Shown piece after piece: positions 2,843-35,712 of a stretch of DNA of 64,000 nucleotides (its first letter is position 1; each line of letters starts with the position of its first letter). The notes under the pieces are model-generated. The model was not told where the DNA came from, did not search any database, and saw only the letters and a program-made list of their open reading frames with translations. The position numbers and the translations under genes were made by a program. The stretch spans positions 1-64,000 of the forward strand of contig CALDYY010000070.1 of NCBI GenBank assembly GCA_937944245.1, written 5' to 3'. The stretch is from an uncultured Saprospiraceae bacterium (GTDB lineage Bacteria > Bacteroidota > Bacteroidia > Chitinophagales > Saprospiraceae).

Positions 2843-3775
2843 ATGCTCAGCAGAAGGAATGTGCGCATCAAAGTGATGCAGTTACTCTACGCTCAAAGTA
2901 GAGATGAAGTTCTAAATCTTGACAGTTTGATGCGGCAATACAAACGCAGCATACAAGGGTCTTATGAACTATTCTTATTTAGTTTGTTGCAAATGATTAG
3001 AATTGCAGAGTACGCCAAACACGATGCAGCAACTAGAAAAACAAAATTCTTACCCAATGAAGCAGATAAATCATTTACCGCTATATTAGCAGATAACGAA
3101 TTAACCGCCTCCATCTATAACAACCAAAGTTTCAAGCAGAAAATAGAAAAGCTCAAACTTGTCCACCGTACAGATATGGACAATGCGCGAAAAATGTATG
3201 CTGAATTTTTAAAAACAGAAGAATATTTGGCTTACATTGCACTGGAGACACATACAAATAAAGAGCATGAGGACATTTTGCTTAATTTGTTCAAATTTTG
3301 CTTAAAAAGTGAACTTTACAACGATATTATTGAAGACAACTACCCACTTTGGTCCGACGATAAATCCCTAGTAATAGGCACTATCAAGAAAATTATTAAA
3401 GCATTACCCGCCAGTGAAACGCTATTTGATGAATACTTGCCAAATGATGAAACGACTGAATTTGGAGAAGAACTTTTAAGAGTCGTTTTTGAAGAAGACC
3501 AAATATTACTGAATATTATAGAGCCTGTACTCAAGAATTGGGATGCAGATCGAGTTGCTATTATAGACATGATTCTCATAAAAATGGCTCTAGTGGAGTT
3601 ATTGAACTTCCCAACCATACCGACCAAAGTGACTTTGAATGAGTTTGTGGAAATATCAAAATTATACAGCACTGATAAAAGTAAAGATTTTATTAATGGT
3701 ATTTTAGACCGTTTGATGAAGCAACTGGTTAAAGATGGTAAAATCCAAAAGGAAGGTCGAGGGTTACAGTCGTAA
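2843..3775 (+). CDS. nusB: Transcription antitermination factor NusB
   Basis: 310 residues, the long form typical of Bacteroidota. The N-terminus MLSRRNVRIKVMQLLYA and the C-terminal LNEFVEISKLYSTDKSKDFINGILDRL are the two conserved NusB halves. A lineage-specific insertion (about residues 60-205) separates them, against about 140 residues in E. coli. NusB binds boxA RNA with ribosomal protein S10 and takes part in rRNA antitermination. It is followed 108 bases later by guaA, which has its own promoter. Identification is firm; the role of the insertion is unknown. Confidence 0.93.
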   Translation: MLSRRNVRIKVMQLLYAQSRDEVLNLDSLMRQYKRSIQGSYELFLFSLLQMIRIAEYAKHDAATRKTKFLPNEADKSFTAILADNELTASIYNNQSFKQKIEKLKLVHRTDMDNARKMYAEFLKTEEYLAYIALETHTNKEHEDILLNLFKFCLKSELYNDIIEDNYPLWSDDKSLVIGTIKKIIKALPASETLFDEYLPNDETTEFGEELLRVVFEEDQILLNIIEPVLKNWDADRVAIIDMILIKMALVELLNFPTIPTKVTLNEFVEISKLYSTDKSKDFINGILDRLMKQLVKDGKIQKEGRGLQS

Positions 3776-6860: not shown

Positions 6861-6943
6861 GCTTACATAAGGACTATTTTATTGCAACTTCTTGCTAGAA
6901 ATCTAGTAATATTTTGCGACAAAATCTGACAATCGTTCAGCAA

Positions 6944-8299
6944 ATGAGTGTATATAAAATAATTCTGGAACGATTCAGCGACCGCGTTGACAAGCAACAC
7001 GCTGAAGAGTTTTACGAAAAACTCTACCTCAATAACTTAGAGCGCGCCTATCTGATTAGTGTAATGGGGGTGATTTCTTTTTTCTTTTTATTGGTCTCTG
7101 ACTACTTTAATATGAGGAATGCCAATAGTATGGATAGAATCATTAGTTCCATGATGTTTATTACTCATGCGCTGATTTCTTTTTTGATGATTCCTTCCTT
7201 CTTTTTACTAGGCAACAAAGAGAACTGGTTCGCCGACATTTATAAGAATAAACGTATGTTCTTCTTCTTAACCCTTGCCATATTGGGTTTTTCGCTTTTA
7301 CCTATGGCAATCGTTTCCCTACAAACAAGAGGAAGTATTGTTGTTTTTGCCATATTTATTATTATTGTTAATCTTGGCTTTAAAGTCCCTTTAACAACTA
7401 ACATTATCATCAATATTATTAGTATCTTTGTTGTCTCCATTGGAATTTTTTATGTAGGTACAACTCCTTCTGACATCATCTCTAATCTGTTTGAATGCTG
7501 GGCATTAAATGGAGCAGTATTTGTGATTTCTTCTTACCAATTTCAATCGGAAGTTAAGCAATTTAACTATGAAAAACTATTGGAGGAAAAAAACAAAATC
7601 ATCAAATCACAATTAGAAACAGAGTTCAATAAGAAGATTGCAGAAATAGAAATGACGGCACTTCGAGCGCAAATGAATCCTCACTTTCTATTTAATGTAC
7701 TCAATTCCATCAAACTATACATGGTTCAAAATGATGCTAGAACTGCTGCTCGCTATCTGACTAAATTCTCTCGCCTCATTCGCCTTATCCTCAACAATAG
7801 TAAATCACCGATGATTAAGTTAAGCGAGGAATTAAGCGCACTTCAACTCTATGTCGAAATGGAGAACTTTCGTTTCAATGATAAATTTGACTACGAAATT
7901 GACGTACACCCAAGTATCAACATTGAATCAGTGGACATCCCTCCTATGATTTTGCAACCTTACGTCGAGAATGCTATTTGGCATGGCTTAATGCACAAAG
8001 AAGAAAATCGTGGGAAATTGACCATCAATATACAACCCACAAAAGATGGTTTGTTCTTTTTTATCGAGGACAATGGTATTGGGCGAGAGCGTGCCACCCA
8101 AATCAAAACCCGAACCGCTGCCAAGCACAAATCCGTAGGAATGCAAATTACGCACGACCGCATCGCCATCACTAACGAACTCTTCAACACTAATGCCAGT
8201 GTAAGCATATTGGATTTAAAGGATAGAGATGGTAACGCATGTGGCACTAGAGTTATCATTCATTTACCTACCAATGAAAGTGCACCGATATTGGATTAA
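6944..8299 (+). CDS. LytS-type sensor histidine kinase, six membrane segments
   Basis: 451 residues from the ATG at 6944, preferred over a TTG 30 bases upstream. About six hydrophobic segments fill residues 30-200, followed by a short coiled coil (about 205-240). The His_kinase dimerisation motif LRAQMNPHFLFN has phosphoacceptor His247. The ATPase domain shows the N-box ENAIWHGL and the G-box DNGIGRERA. Such kinases usually pair with LytTR regulators. None is adjacent; the only LytTR gene here, at 34.8-35.6 kb, sits beside another kinase. No extracellular sensor domain is visible, so the signal is probably sensed in the membrane. Confidence 0.88.
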   Translation: MSVYKIILERFSDRVDKQHAEEFYEKLYLNNLERAYLISVMGVISFFFLLVSDYFNMRNANSMDRIISSMMFITHALISFLMIPSFFLLGNKENWFADIYKNKRMFFFLTLAILGFSLLPMAIVSLQTRGSIVVFAIFIIIVNLGFKVPLTTNIIINIISIFVVSIGIFYVGTTPSDIISNLFECWALNGAVFVISSYQFQSEVKQFNYEKLLEEKNKIIKSQLETEFNKKIAEIEMTALRAQMNPHFLFNVLNSIKLYMVQNDARTAARYLTKFSRLIRLILNNSKSPMIKLSEELSALQLYVEMENFRFNDKFDYEIDVHPSINIESVDIPPMILQPYVENAIWHGLMHKEENRGKLTINIQPTKDGLFFFIEDNGIGRERATQIKTRTAAKHKSVGMQITHDRIAITNELFNTNASVSILDLKDRDGNACGTRVIIHLPTNESAPILD

Positions 8300-32362: not shown

Positions 32363-34285
32363 TTATTTTATTTCTAATTCCATAATAGGAATTAAAACTT
32401 CCACGCGCGTTCCCAAAGGTTCTCCGGTGTTAGTATCCTCAAGGTCAATAATTCGTACAAAACTCTTATTGTCTTCTGATTCGTGTAGTATTTGTAACCG
32501 CGTTTCTGTAATACTTGTACCCATTGATTTGTGGTTATGATGCTGTACTGTTTGCTGAAGATGTTTAGCGGCTTTCCTTCCGATTCCGTTATCTTCTATC
32601 ACACAAAGGATAATGTTGTCATCTTCCTCAAGCATCAAAAACTCTACTCGAATCCACCCATTTTCTTTGGGTCGAAGCCCATGTTCTATGGCGTTCTCCA
32701 CATAAGGTTGCACAATCATTGTGGGTACACCAATAATATCATCCTCAATTTCTTCATCCACCACAATAGTATATTTTAGCTTATCACCAAACCTTAACTT
32801 AGCATTTATTTCGAGGTAGTCCATTAAAAACTCCATCTCTTCTTCTAGTGATATGATTTCTTGTTCAGAGTATTCCAAACTGCGTCGCATAAGTTTAGCA
32901 AACTTGGAAAGGTATTTTGCTGCTAGGGTTACATCGTTGGAAGTAATATAATTTTGGATAGAATTAAGGGCATTAAACATAAAATGCGGATTCATCTGCG
33001 CTCGCAAAGCCTTGAGTTGCAACTGTGTAGCCTTCAGCTTAAGCAATTCCGTTTCTCTGCGTTTTTTCTCTGCATCATATTTTACTTCCAATTCTATTCG
33101 CTCTCGCTTACTTACCTGATCCTCATAGAGTTGATCCATGCGATCATGTTCTACTAAGTAATCATAAGCCATTTTATGATTGCCCAAATCAGCATAGAAG
33201 GTAGCAATACTCTTACAAACTTCTGACAGTAGCCGATAATCTTCGATGATTTCTGCATAAGCATAGGCATTATCAAAGTGGTGCAATGCACGTTCGTGTT
33301 CCCCTAATTCAGCATAAAGTTGTGCCTTCCAGCTATCCAGTATAGAAAAATTATAGAAATCTCTTGTTGAATTTTCTTCATAAAGTTGCTCCGCACGATT
33401 GAAAAAGTCCAATGCCTGATCATACAATTTACGGTCGAGATAGCAATGCCCAAGATTAGCATACGCACTAGCCCTAGCCTGAAGGCTAACATCATCTTTG
33501 ACATTAATGGCTTTCCAAAAGTAAACTTCGGCGCTATCATCGTCATCCAACGCCATGTAACCATTCCCCACATTGAGATAATGCCATGAAAGTCGAGGGC
33601 GAATATCCATTGTTTCGCACATATTGACCACTCGAAGGTAAGCCTTTACACTTTGCTCATGCTGATTGTTTTGCTCATAAATTTTACCTAAACCACTGTT
33701 AATGAGCGTCAAAAAGTAATAGTCTTTAATCGTTAACTTTGAAGTTAGCGCACTAATACCTTTATCCGCTTCCAGCAGTAATTCGACCGATTTCGAGTAG
33801 TTGTTGTCGTACAAATTCAAATAGCCTTCGCGACAAAGAATGCGCGTTTGCAATCGCTCGTCTGGGAAAGATTGCAATTTTTTCTCTGCTTTACGCAAAA
33901 ATGCCATTGCCGACTCCATTTTATTGAGATTAGTGCAAGTGCCTGCATAGTCAATAAATGCTTCCGCTTGTTGTATGGCGGAGCCGCGCTCGTTGAGCAA
34001 ATCAATCGCCTGCAAAAAGTGAATTTCTGCTAGAAAAAAATTATACAGTTGGTTCTCAACAATAGCTGTGTTCAAGTGGAAATTCAACTTTAAATCGGGA
34101 ATATTCCAATTTAACAGCAGTTGCTGTTGTTCTGAGAGTAACGCTCTTGCTTTAGCAACGTCTGTGTAAGCGTAATGGCTTGCAAGTTGATCAATTAAAA
34201 TAACACGCTGTTGCTTATCTTTTTGATGCGCCAGTTTTTGCTCTAAATATTTAATGTTGGTATCGTAATCCCTATGTACTGTCAA
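32363..34285 (-). CDS. Soluble TPR-domain LytS-type histidine kinase
   Basis: 640 residues. About 1-385 are TPR-like helical repeats (for example ARASAYANLGHCYLDRKLYD, ALHHFDNAYAYAEIIEDYRL), then a charged coiled coil (about 385-425). The His_kinase motif LRAQMNPHFMFNALNSIQNY carries the phosphoacceptor His. The ATPase domain shows ENAIEHGLRP and EDNGIGRKAA. Relatives usually have a signal peptide and a membrane helix between the TPRs and the kinase core; I see neither, so this kinase should be cytoplasmic. No ATG is available near the N-terminus; TTG at 34285 is the best start, with an in-frame TGA at 34312-34310. It lies 80 bases after the double-glycine peptide gene and downstream of a LytTR regulator, its likely partner. 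Confidence 0.9.
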   Translation of the reverse strand: MTVHRDYDTNIKYLEQKLAHQKDKQQRVILIDQLASHYAYTDVAKARALLSEQQQLLLNWNIPDLKLNFHLNTAIVENQLYNFFLAEIHFLQAIDLLNERGSAIQQAEAFIDYAGTCTNLNKMESAMAFLRKAEKKLQSFPDERLQTRILCREGYLNLYDNNYSKSVELLLEADKGISALTSKLTIKDYYFLTLINSGLGKIYEQNNQHEQSVKAYLRVVNMCETMDIRPRLSWHYLNVGNGYMALDDDDSAEVYFWKAINVKDDVSLQARASAYANLGHCYLDRKLYDQALDFFNRAEQLYEENSTRDFYNFSILDSWKAQLYAELGEHERALHHFDNAYAYAEIIEDYRLLSEVCKSIATFYADLGNHKMAYDYLVEHDRMDQLYEDQVSKRERIELEVKYDAEKKRRETELLKLKATQLQLKALRAQMNPHFMFNALNSIQNYITSNDVTLAAKYLSKFAKLMRRSLEYSEQEIISLEEEMEFLMDYLEINAKLRFGDKLKYTIVVDEEIEDDIIGVPTMIVQPYVENAIEHGLRPKENGWIRVEFLMLEEDDNIILCVIEDNGIGRKAAKHLQQTVQHHNHKSMGTSITETRLQILHESEDNKSFVRIIDLEDTNTGEPLGTRVEVLIPIMELEIK

Positions 34286-34365: not shown

Positions 34366-34506
34366 TTATTGAGGCACTATATTTCCACAACCGTTACGAT
34401 TACCCCACTTTTTTATTTTTTTACCGCCTTTGAGTTTATCTTGCTGCTCTTTTGGAATTTCATTTTTTCCTTCCAAAGAAGATAGTGTTTTTCTTTTCTT
34501 TCCCAT
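34366..34506 (-). CDS. 46-residue double-glycine leader peptide
   Basis: Found by reading the gap between the regulator and kinase genes. An ATG at 34506 opens 46 codons ending in TAA. The N-terminal part is Lys-rich (MGKKRKTLSSLEGK); then EIPKEQQDKLKGG ends in a Gly-Gly at residues 27-28. This is the shape of double-glycine leaders cut by C39 peptidases and of the Bacteroidota natural-product precursor leaders. The 18-residue tail (KKIKKWGNRNGCGNIVPQ) is basic with a single cysteine. A minus-strand -7 element lies about 108 bases upstream. No transporter or modifying enzyme is in the window. It could be a pheromone, bacteriocin or modified-peptide precursor; chance ORF is not excluded. Confidence 0.55.
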   Translation of the reverse strand: MGKKRKTLSSLEGKNEIPKEQQDKLKGGKKIKKWGNRNGCGNIVPQ

Positions 34507-34776: not shown

Positions 34777-35589
34777 CTACAAGCCCTCTTGTAAGCGTTT
34801 CATTTGTTCCATAAAAGTTGGACGACGACGGCGTGAAACTTCAATTTTCATACCGTCGTCCATAATTAAATAACCTCCTTCGCCTTTCACAAACTTGCGC
34901 ATGAAATTCAAATTAATTACATGGCGTTTGTGAACGCGATAGAAGTTGAAGGGAACAAGTAACTCTTCGTATGATTTAATCGTCTTTGATGCGGTAATCC
35001 GCTCTCCTGTCACTAAGAATATATGGGTATAGTTGTCGTCAGCTTCAAAGCGCATAATATCCACAATGTTGACAAAATAAATGCCATCCAAAGCAGAAAT
35101 ACTCATTTTCTTGAAAGCATTGGGGTTGTTGAAGTAAGTGTTGAATATTTCTAAACGATTGTTGATGTGGCTACTTCTTTTTTGATACACACGCTCCATT
35201 GTTTCTTTCAGCGCATCGGGGTCAATTGGTTTTACAATGTAACCAATGGAACTATATTCACAGGCTTTTATGGCATACTCCTCAAATGCTGTAACAAAAA
35301 CTACCTCAAAGCTAATCGGCGATAATTCATTGAGTATTTGAAACACCTGACCATCAGGTAAGTTGATGTCTAGAAATGCAACATCTGGCTCAACACCCGG
35401 AGTAGAAAGCAACTGAATACCCTCCTTTACGCTTCTTGCTTCACCAATCAATTCAATTTCAGGGCAGTATTGGCTTAACAAATTTTTTAGATTGTTCAAT
35501 CCTTTTTCTTCATCTTCTACAATAATCGCCTTTAAAATCTCTGTTTTTGGCTTAGGTGTATTCGATGGTACTCGTGTTGTGGCTTCCAT
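34777..35589 (-). CDS. LytTR-family response regulator
   Basis: 270 residues from the ATG at 35589; the upstream extension to 35628 has no family support. The receiver domain (about 18-135) has acidic pocket VEDEE (Glu25-Asp26), phosphoacceptor Asp74 in FLDINLPDG, VTAFEEYA and the lysine in YIVKPID. The LytTR DNA-binding domain (about 165-262) shows IVDIMRFEADDNYTHIFLV and FYRVHKRHVINLNFMRKF. Such regulators bind paired direct repeats. Its neighbour is the TPR kinase, with the small peptide gene between; together they form an RR-peptide-HK locus. Confidence 0.93.
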   Translation of the reverse strand: MEATTRVPSNTPKPKTEILKAIIVEDEEKGLNNLKNLLSQYCPEIELIGEARSVKEGIQLLSTPGVEPDVAFLDINLPDGQVFQILNELSPISFEVVFVTAFEEYAIKACEYSSIGYIVKPIDPDALKETMERVYQKRSSHINNRLEIFNTYFNNPNAFKKMSISALDGIYFVNIVDIMRFEADDNYTHIFLVTGERITASKTIKSYEELLVPFNFYRVHKRHVINLNFMRKFVKGEGGYLIMDDGMKIEVSRRRRPTFMEQMKRLQEGL

Positions 35590-35712
35590 AATCTTTGAAT
35601 GTTTAGTGTGTGTGTCAGTACAGTTCAACTTACTTGGTTATTGAACACCAAATTCAAAAGTTTATTTTACGGAAATGAATTATTTTTTTATTTAATGTGT
35701 ATTTGCTTCCAA

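Follow-up and report, generated by a model that had tools for sequence, protein, structure and literature searches.

Does a very short gene lodged between a response regulator and a histidine kinase encode a signal for that pair? The question arose from a 64,000-nucleotide stretch of DNA from an uncultured Saprospiraceae bacterium (the window). A first-pass annotation, made from the sequence alone, had reported a 46-codon double-glycine (GG) peptide gene between a LytTR regulator and a kinase on the same strand, with an 18-residue basic tail holding one cysteine, and had proposed an undescribed Bacteroidota peptide-signaling or peptide-product locus. The description of the gene and its placement held exactly, as did that of the tail for the window peptide. 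The features that the argument needs are as follows.

34366..34506, minus strand: 46-aa double-glycine precursor peptide gene (ORF, own-genome profile match at 1.5e-16, synteny, near-synonymous changes in relatives)
34423..34506, minus strand: leader, residues 1-28, with the KLKGG double-glycine site at its end (GG of the family, ComA-type-like positions)
34369..34422, minus strand: predicted mature tail KKIKKWGNRNGCGNIVPQ, 18 aa (conserved C-terminal C-G-[GND]-I-[VLI]-P-[QH])
34777..35628, minus strand: LytTR response regulator (Response_reg and LytTR domains; orthologue upstream of the peptide in relatives)
32363..34285, minus strand: cytoplasmic TPR histidine kinase (Pfam domains, no hydrophobic segment, AlphaFold2 TPR model)

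A double-glycine peptide gene within a two-component locus

The peptide ORF starts with ATG, and its 46 codons encode MGKKRKTLSSLEGKNEIPKEQQDKLKGG-KKIKKWGNRNGCGNIVPQ, with a tail of net charge +5. When a strict GG-leader pattern was applied to the small ORFs of the window, this ORF alone matched, and none did in 10 shuffled windows; the observation of a GG-leader peptide is correct and lies far above chance. Short genes like this one are readily overlooked, and the window peptide matched no model in Pfam (to E 1) or NCBIfam (to E 10). Among the peptide genes of genus g21, 14 differences were distributed 0/1/13 by codon position, and in genus g56 all 14 of 14 fell at the third position. Conservation, synteny and these third-position changes show that the ORF is a real gene under purifying selection.

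The regulator carries Pfam Response_reg (E 7.6e-13) and LytTR (1.2e-16) domains, probably begins at an internal ATG near 35589, and has orthologues upstream of the peptide in relatives that are 50-76% identical. The kinase (640 aa) consists of TPRs at about residues 1-398 (TPR_12, 7.9e-15) and His_kinase PF06580 at 423-503 (3.5e-23), followed by HATPase. The peptide gene lies 270 nt from the regulator stop at 34777 and 80 nt from the kinase start, a TTG at 34285, and no terminator-like site was found on the peptide's strand in the regulator-to-kinase interval. Expression of the peptide from this locus is inferred. Bacteroidota promoter-like sites occurred upstream of 8 of 25 peptide genes against 2.6 expected from dinucleotide shuffles, which is only suggestive because the highest shuffle also gave 8, and LytTR-type repeats were not enriched there (2/25 observed, 5.1 expected). 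An upstream k-mer enrichment was discarded, as it appears to stem from the coding end of the regulator. Elsewhere in the window, another kinase of this type is encoded at 6914-8299 on the plus strand; its catalytic half shares 43% identity with that of the locus kinase.

The locus recurs across Saprospiraceae

A peptide profile built from 11 relatives was searched against 398 Saprospiraceae genomes from 112 genera (cut-off E <= 0.1) and matched in 184 genomes and 64 genera, with a best value of 1e-23 in one genome; the kinase orthologue was present in 204 of the 398. In 85 of the 104 genomes for which both matches were listed, the peptide lay directly upstream of the orthologous kinase on the same strand, at a distance of 63-551 nt (median 130). 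Among fetched loci with an orthologous regulator-kinase pair, all 31 had a small ORF with the C-terminal motif between the two genes, 28 of them with GG, and these included some that the profile had overlooked. The locus thus recurs between orthologous regulator and kinase in many genera. The first-pass annotation had asked whether the peptide recurs between LytTR and TPR-kinase genes with a conserved GG, and would have been refuted had the ORF been unconserved in relatives sharing the pair; it does recur, the GG is near-invariant, and the ORF is conserved.

The arrangement is not fixed everywhere: the regulator-peptide part is separated from the kinase in several genomes (L178, L185, L223, L229), and in one genus g110 locus a gene for a TonB-dependent receptor separates the peptide from the kinase. 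Titled records with peptide loci come from Saprospiraceae, Lewinellaceae and unclassified Bacteroidetes MAGs. When 295 genomes sampled across the class were searched, two matches fell within the same family and six outside it, and because the latter were few, weak and nearly all confined to the leader, the peptide family is apparently restricted to Saprospiraceae at this search sensitivity.

Three variations on the locus were also observed. Locus L206 has tandem GG peptides with unlike tails (3382-3525 and 2981-3139) between one regulator and one kinase, possibly a duplicated signal. Genus g41 encodes an orphan divergent GG peptide, ...LDKDEMNKVEGGKTNNSFGSLGDLRDSLGSTIPL, remote from any regulator-kinase pair (L192 6095-6298, L233 5864-6067). 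In genus g36 (L183, L215-L218), paralogous peptides, e.g. ...GGVVFRIRRKKKLCGNIVPQ, precede a soluble TPR-only protein of 469 aa by about 0.3-0.4 kb; since relatives of that protein in the window's own genome and three further ones had no adjacent GG peptide, this second peptide-TPR pairing gives weak support only.

The leader and the extreme C-terminus are the constant parts of the peptide

In 45 family members, GG was present in 42, and the leader followed the pattern [LI]xxx[DE]MxxIxGG, with L or I (or V/M) at -12, D/E/Q at -8 in 37/42, M the commonest residue at -7, and I/V/F frequent at -4. The recognition consensus of the C39 exporter ComA is Leu-12, Glu-8 and Leu-7 (PMC6363468). The family thus has a GG leader resembling the ComA-type C39 consensus, and cleavage itself is inferred.

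Tails are usually 16-20 residues long and mostly basic, and their conserved part is the last seven residues, C-G-[GND]-I-[VLI]-P-[QH]. Over these positions we counted C in 37/45, G in 35/45, G/N/D in 43/45, I in 33/45 and V/L/I/M in 41/45 members, with P at -2 in 44/45 and Q or H at -1 in 42/45, so that the extreme C-terminus is the best-conserved part of the tail. The cysteine is dispensable, being absent from its position in eight members. Across the peptide, the GG leader and the P-[QH] at the C-terminus vary least. Exceptions to the leader occur at the same locus position in genus g111 (L210 3048-3215, L211 3042-3215), where the GG leader is lost and the C-terminus kept (KWNSRCGDLLPH; RCGDLLPH), and in G391, where GT replaces GG and the C-terminus is again retained.

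A C39 exporter accompanies the peptide

The first-pass annotation had suggested searching the whole genome for C39-peptidase ABC transporters, and this was positive: the window's genome encodes one (G000:C49), away from the peptide locus. A C39 exporter was found in 56/56 peptide-bearing genomes checked vs 3/13 without peptide and kinase (Fisher 8e-10), or by genus in 29/29 vs 3/14 (6e-8); these counts are uncorrected for phylogeny. In genus g27, which kept the kinase and has no detected peptide, C39 occurred in 0/4 genomes. Other GG peptides lie near some C39 exporters, and the exporter may serve other substrates. From the leader and the co-occurrence, and without export data, we infer that the C39 exporter likely cleaves after GG and exports the tail.

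The kinase is a candidate intracellular receptor

No membrane segment was found in the kinase by hydropathy (top 19-residue value 1.03, and a maximum of 1.71 in 29 kinases, comprising this one and 28 orthologues), and no signal peptide by inspection. The absence of a membrane segment rules out a ComD-type receptor, and a ComD-like membrane pheromone receptor was therefore rejected.

AlphaFold2 run on 30 orthologues gave a helical superhelix for the TPR region (pLDDT 93.6, pTM 0.89); a TPR superhelix is thus predicted for the first 400 residues, similar to those of RRNPP receptors and other peptide-binding TPR proteins. VIA-align placed the model close to LGN (Z 26.9), RapI (25.8), RapF-PhrF (25.1), phage Raps with pheromones (24.8-24.3) and NprR (24.1). 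Its nearest bacterial structures are thus RRNPP receptors, although LGN and further TPR proteins score about as well; since several Z scores lie within 1, the match is evidence of fold and not of function. A sequence search with the profile likewise returned many TPR proteins, one of them a Rap (8e-8).

In TPR superhelices, A helices line the groove. Conserved polar residues of the kinase were concentrated there, with 13 on A helices (N78, Q79, N119, R152, K187, D188, R231, W234, H235, N238, R271, N277 and N312) vs 1 on B helices (p = 7e-4). Some residues are lost in kinase orthologues that have no peptide nearby; because the polar groove residues stay, this loss does not discriminate. In partial Mantel tests, peptide distances were significantly associated with regulator distances (p = 0.002) and not with TPR distances (p = 0.095). 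Co-divergence of peptide and TPR beyond common descent is thus unsupported, and binding is neither supported nor excluded. Binding of the peptide by the TPR domain is inferred from architecture, with no binding data.

A proposed signaling route and its rivals

We propose that the peptide is a secreted signal for the adjoining kinase and regulator, with RRNPP-like intracellular sensing wired into a LytTR two-component system; without binding, export or expression data, we consider this as likely to be wrong as right. In this view, the 46-aa precursor would be produced from the regulator-peptide-kinase locus, and the C39-peptidase ABC exporter encoded elsewhere, the one later step with support from the data, would cut after GG and export the 18-residue basic tail. 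Either the whole tail or just the 7-8 conserved residues at its C-terminus would then re-enter the cytoplasm, perhaps through an Opp-type importer. An Opp-type binding protein was found in 14/15 genomes, and such proteins are common; import across two membranes is inferred and unproven. The peptide would bind the concave groove of the TPR superhelix and alter kinase activity, a step inferred from architecture, and the LytTR regulator would alter transcription, as is known for its family, control of particular genes by this regulator being inferred.

The pheromone reading is favored by synteny, purifying selection, C39 co-occurrence, a soluble TPR kinase, the polar groove residues, the conserved C-terminus, the Opp-type protein and the absence of a recurrent modifying or immunity gene. 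It is weakened by the g111 and G391 peptides, which depart from GG yet keep the C-terminus, and also by the off-locus exporter, the null peptide-TPR Mantel result, the groove residues kept in peptide-less kinases and the lack of enriched LytTR-like repeats upstream.

One rival is internal sensing without re-import, in which the unexported precursor or tail binds the TPR kinase and the kinase reads precursor level as a measure of export capacity or C39 activity. The kinase is cytoplasmic, the g111 C-terminus is conserved despite loss of GG, and no import step is necessary; against this, GG is nearly invariant elsewhere in the family and a C39 exporter accompanies the peptide. To our knowledge there is no close precedent with GG peptides, and we regard this rival as unlikely.

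A second unlikely rival is a secreted product, whether a bacteriocin-like, antimicrobial, surface or matrix peptide, made under kinase-regulator control while the kinase senses something else. It is favored by the basic tail, by weak leader-level matches to bacteriocin models, and by a cyanobacterium in which small GG proteins take part in biofilm formation (PMC4997328). However, no immunity gene or dedicated exporter recurred at the locus in the neighborhoods examined, the C-terminus is conserved over deep divergence, unlike that of typical bacteriocins, and the peptide position is fixed between regulator and kinase.

A TIGR04149-type RiPP, post-translationally modified by a radical SAM maturase from another part of the genome, is very unlikely: weak matches to TIGR04149 were found for 8/24 members (best E 2.3e-4), but the window peptide has none, and the grasp-associated SPASM maturase (TIGR04193, the only radical SAM maturase searched for) was found in just 2/12 peptide-bearing genomes, the window's own holding a sub-cut-off fragment, so a RiPP with this maturase was rejected. 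That fragment lies outside the window (G000:C140:12299-12514) and contains an in-frame TAG.

The pheromone reading has a bolder form, in which Gram-negative Bacteroidota communicate family-wide through a peptide that leaves by the GG/C39 route and is perceived intracellularly by a soluble histidine kinase with TPRs, so that RRNPP-type sensing feeds a two-component pathway; we lean slightly against it on present evidence. Peptide signaling via intracellular TPR receptors has been described for Firmicutes, their phages and plasmids. If the bolder form is true, the peptide-TPR kinase-LytTR triad would extend such sensing to Gram-negative Bacteroidota, here to bacteria of sludge, freshwater and marine settings. 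In either form, the locus gives a defined and directly testable candidate peptide and receptor.

Comparison with known systems

The proposal of an undescribed locus is supported in that the peptide has no family match and we found no description of this locus in the literature searched, the latter of which is weak evidence since only open-licence papers were covered; signaling itself is inferred and not shown.

RRNPP systems (Rap-Phr, NprR-NprX, PlcR-PapR, Rgg-SHP; Firmicutes) likewise place a small precursor gene beside an intracellular TPR receptor and conserve the peptide C-terminus, and among bacterial structures the Saprospiraceae TPR model is nearest to Rap and NprR. A published RRNPP survey, which covers Firmicutes and refers to Bacteroidetes solely for their abundance in the gut, sets criteria that include a propeptide of 10-100 aa adjacent to the receptor gene (PMC10075063). 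Propeptide size and adjacency are met (46 aa, adjacent in 85/104 genomes), as are receptor TPRs (Pfam TPRs and the pLDDT 93.6 superhelix model). The receptor length of 250-500 aa is not met, because the candidate is fused to a kinase (640 aa), and neither is the Sec or PptAB signal, as inspection found no hydrophobic N-terminal stretch and the peptide has a GG leader instead. The host is a Bacteroidota, and the candidate receptor is a histidine kinase whose LytTR regulator is a protein of its own.

FimS/FimR and other Bacteroidota TPR kinase-LytTR pairs share a TPR sensor, kinase and response regulator, and the window kinase matches the FimS model weakly. FimS differs in being membrane-anchored with a periplasmic TPR sensor, and pairs of this type are not known to have a peptide partner. 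The TIGR04149 GG precursors of Bacteroidota, associated with radical SAM enzymes and graspetides, have a GG leader similar to that of some peptide relatives, but the core of the Saprospiraceae peptide differs, and a maturase is missing from the locus and from most genomes checked. Class II bacteriocins have their immunity gene and exporter beside the precursor; neither recurs in the neighborhoods examined here, nor does any modifying enzyme.

ComC/D/E and plantaricin circuits, the analogy drawn by the first-pass annotation, likewise group the genes for a GG-leader peptide, a histidine kinase and a LytTR regulator. The GG peptide and LytTR parts of the analogy hold: the adjacent LytTR response regulator is present, and the C39-type leader is met by the ComA-consensus pattern and one own-genome C39 exporter, with cleavage inferred. 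The analogy fails at the receptor, since hydropathy of the 29 kinases gave no multi-span membrane protein and the kinase, a soluble protein built on TPRs, is no polytopic membrane receptor; the exporter is also off-locus. The locus fails at least one tested defining feature of RRNPP systems and of ComCDE circuits alike, and by analogy, with peptide sensing inferred, it most resembles RRNPP in its sensing half and ComCDE in its export and LytTR half. If the reading is true, two classic designs, GG/C39 export and sensing by TPR proteins, would be newly combined.
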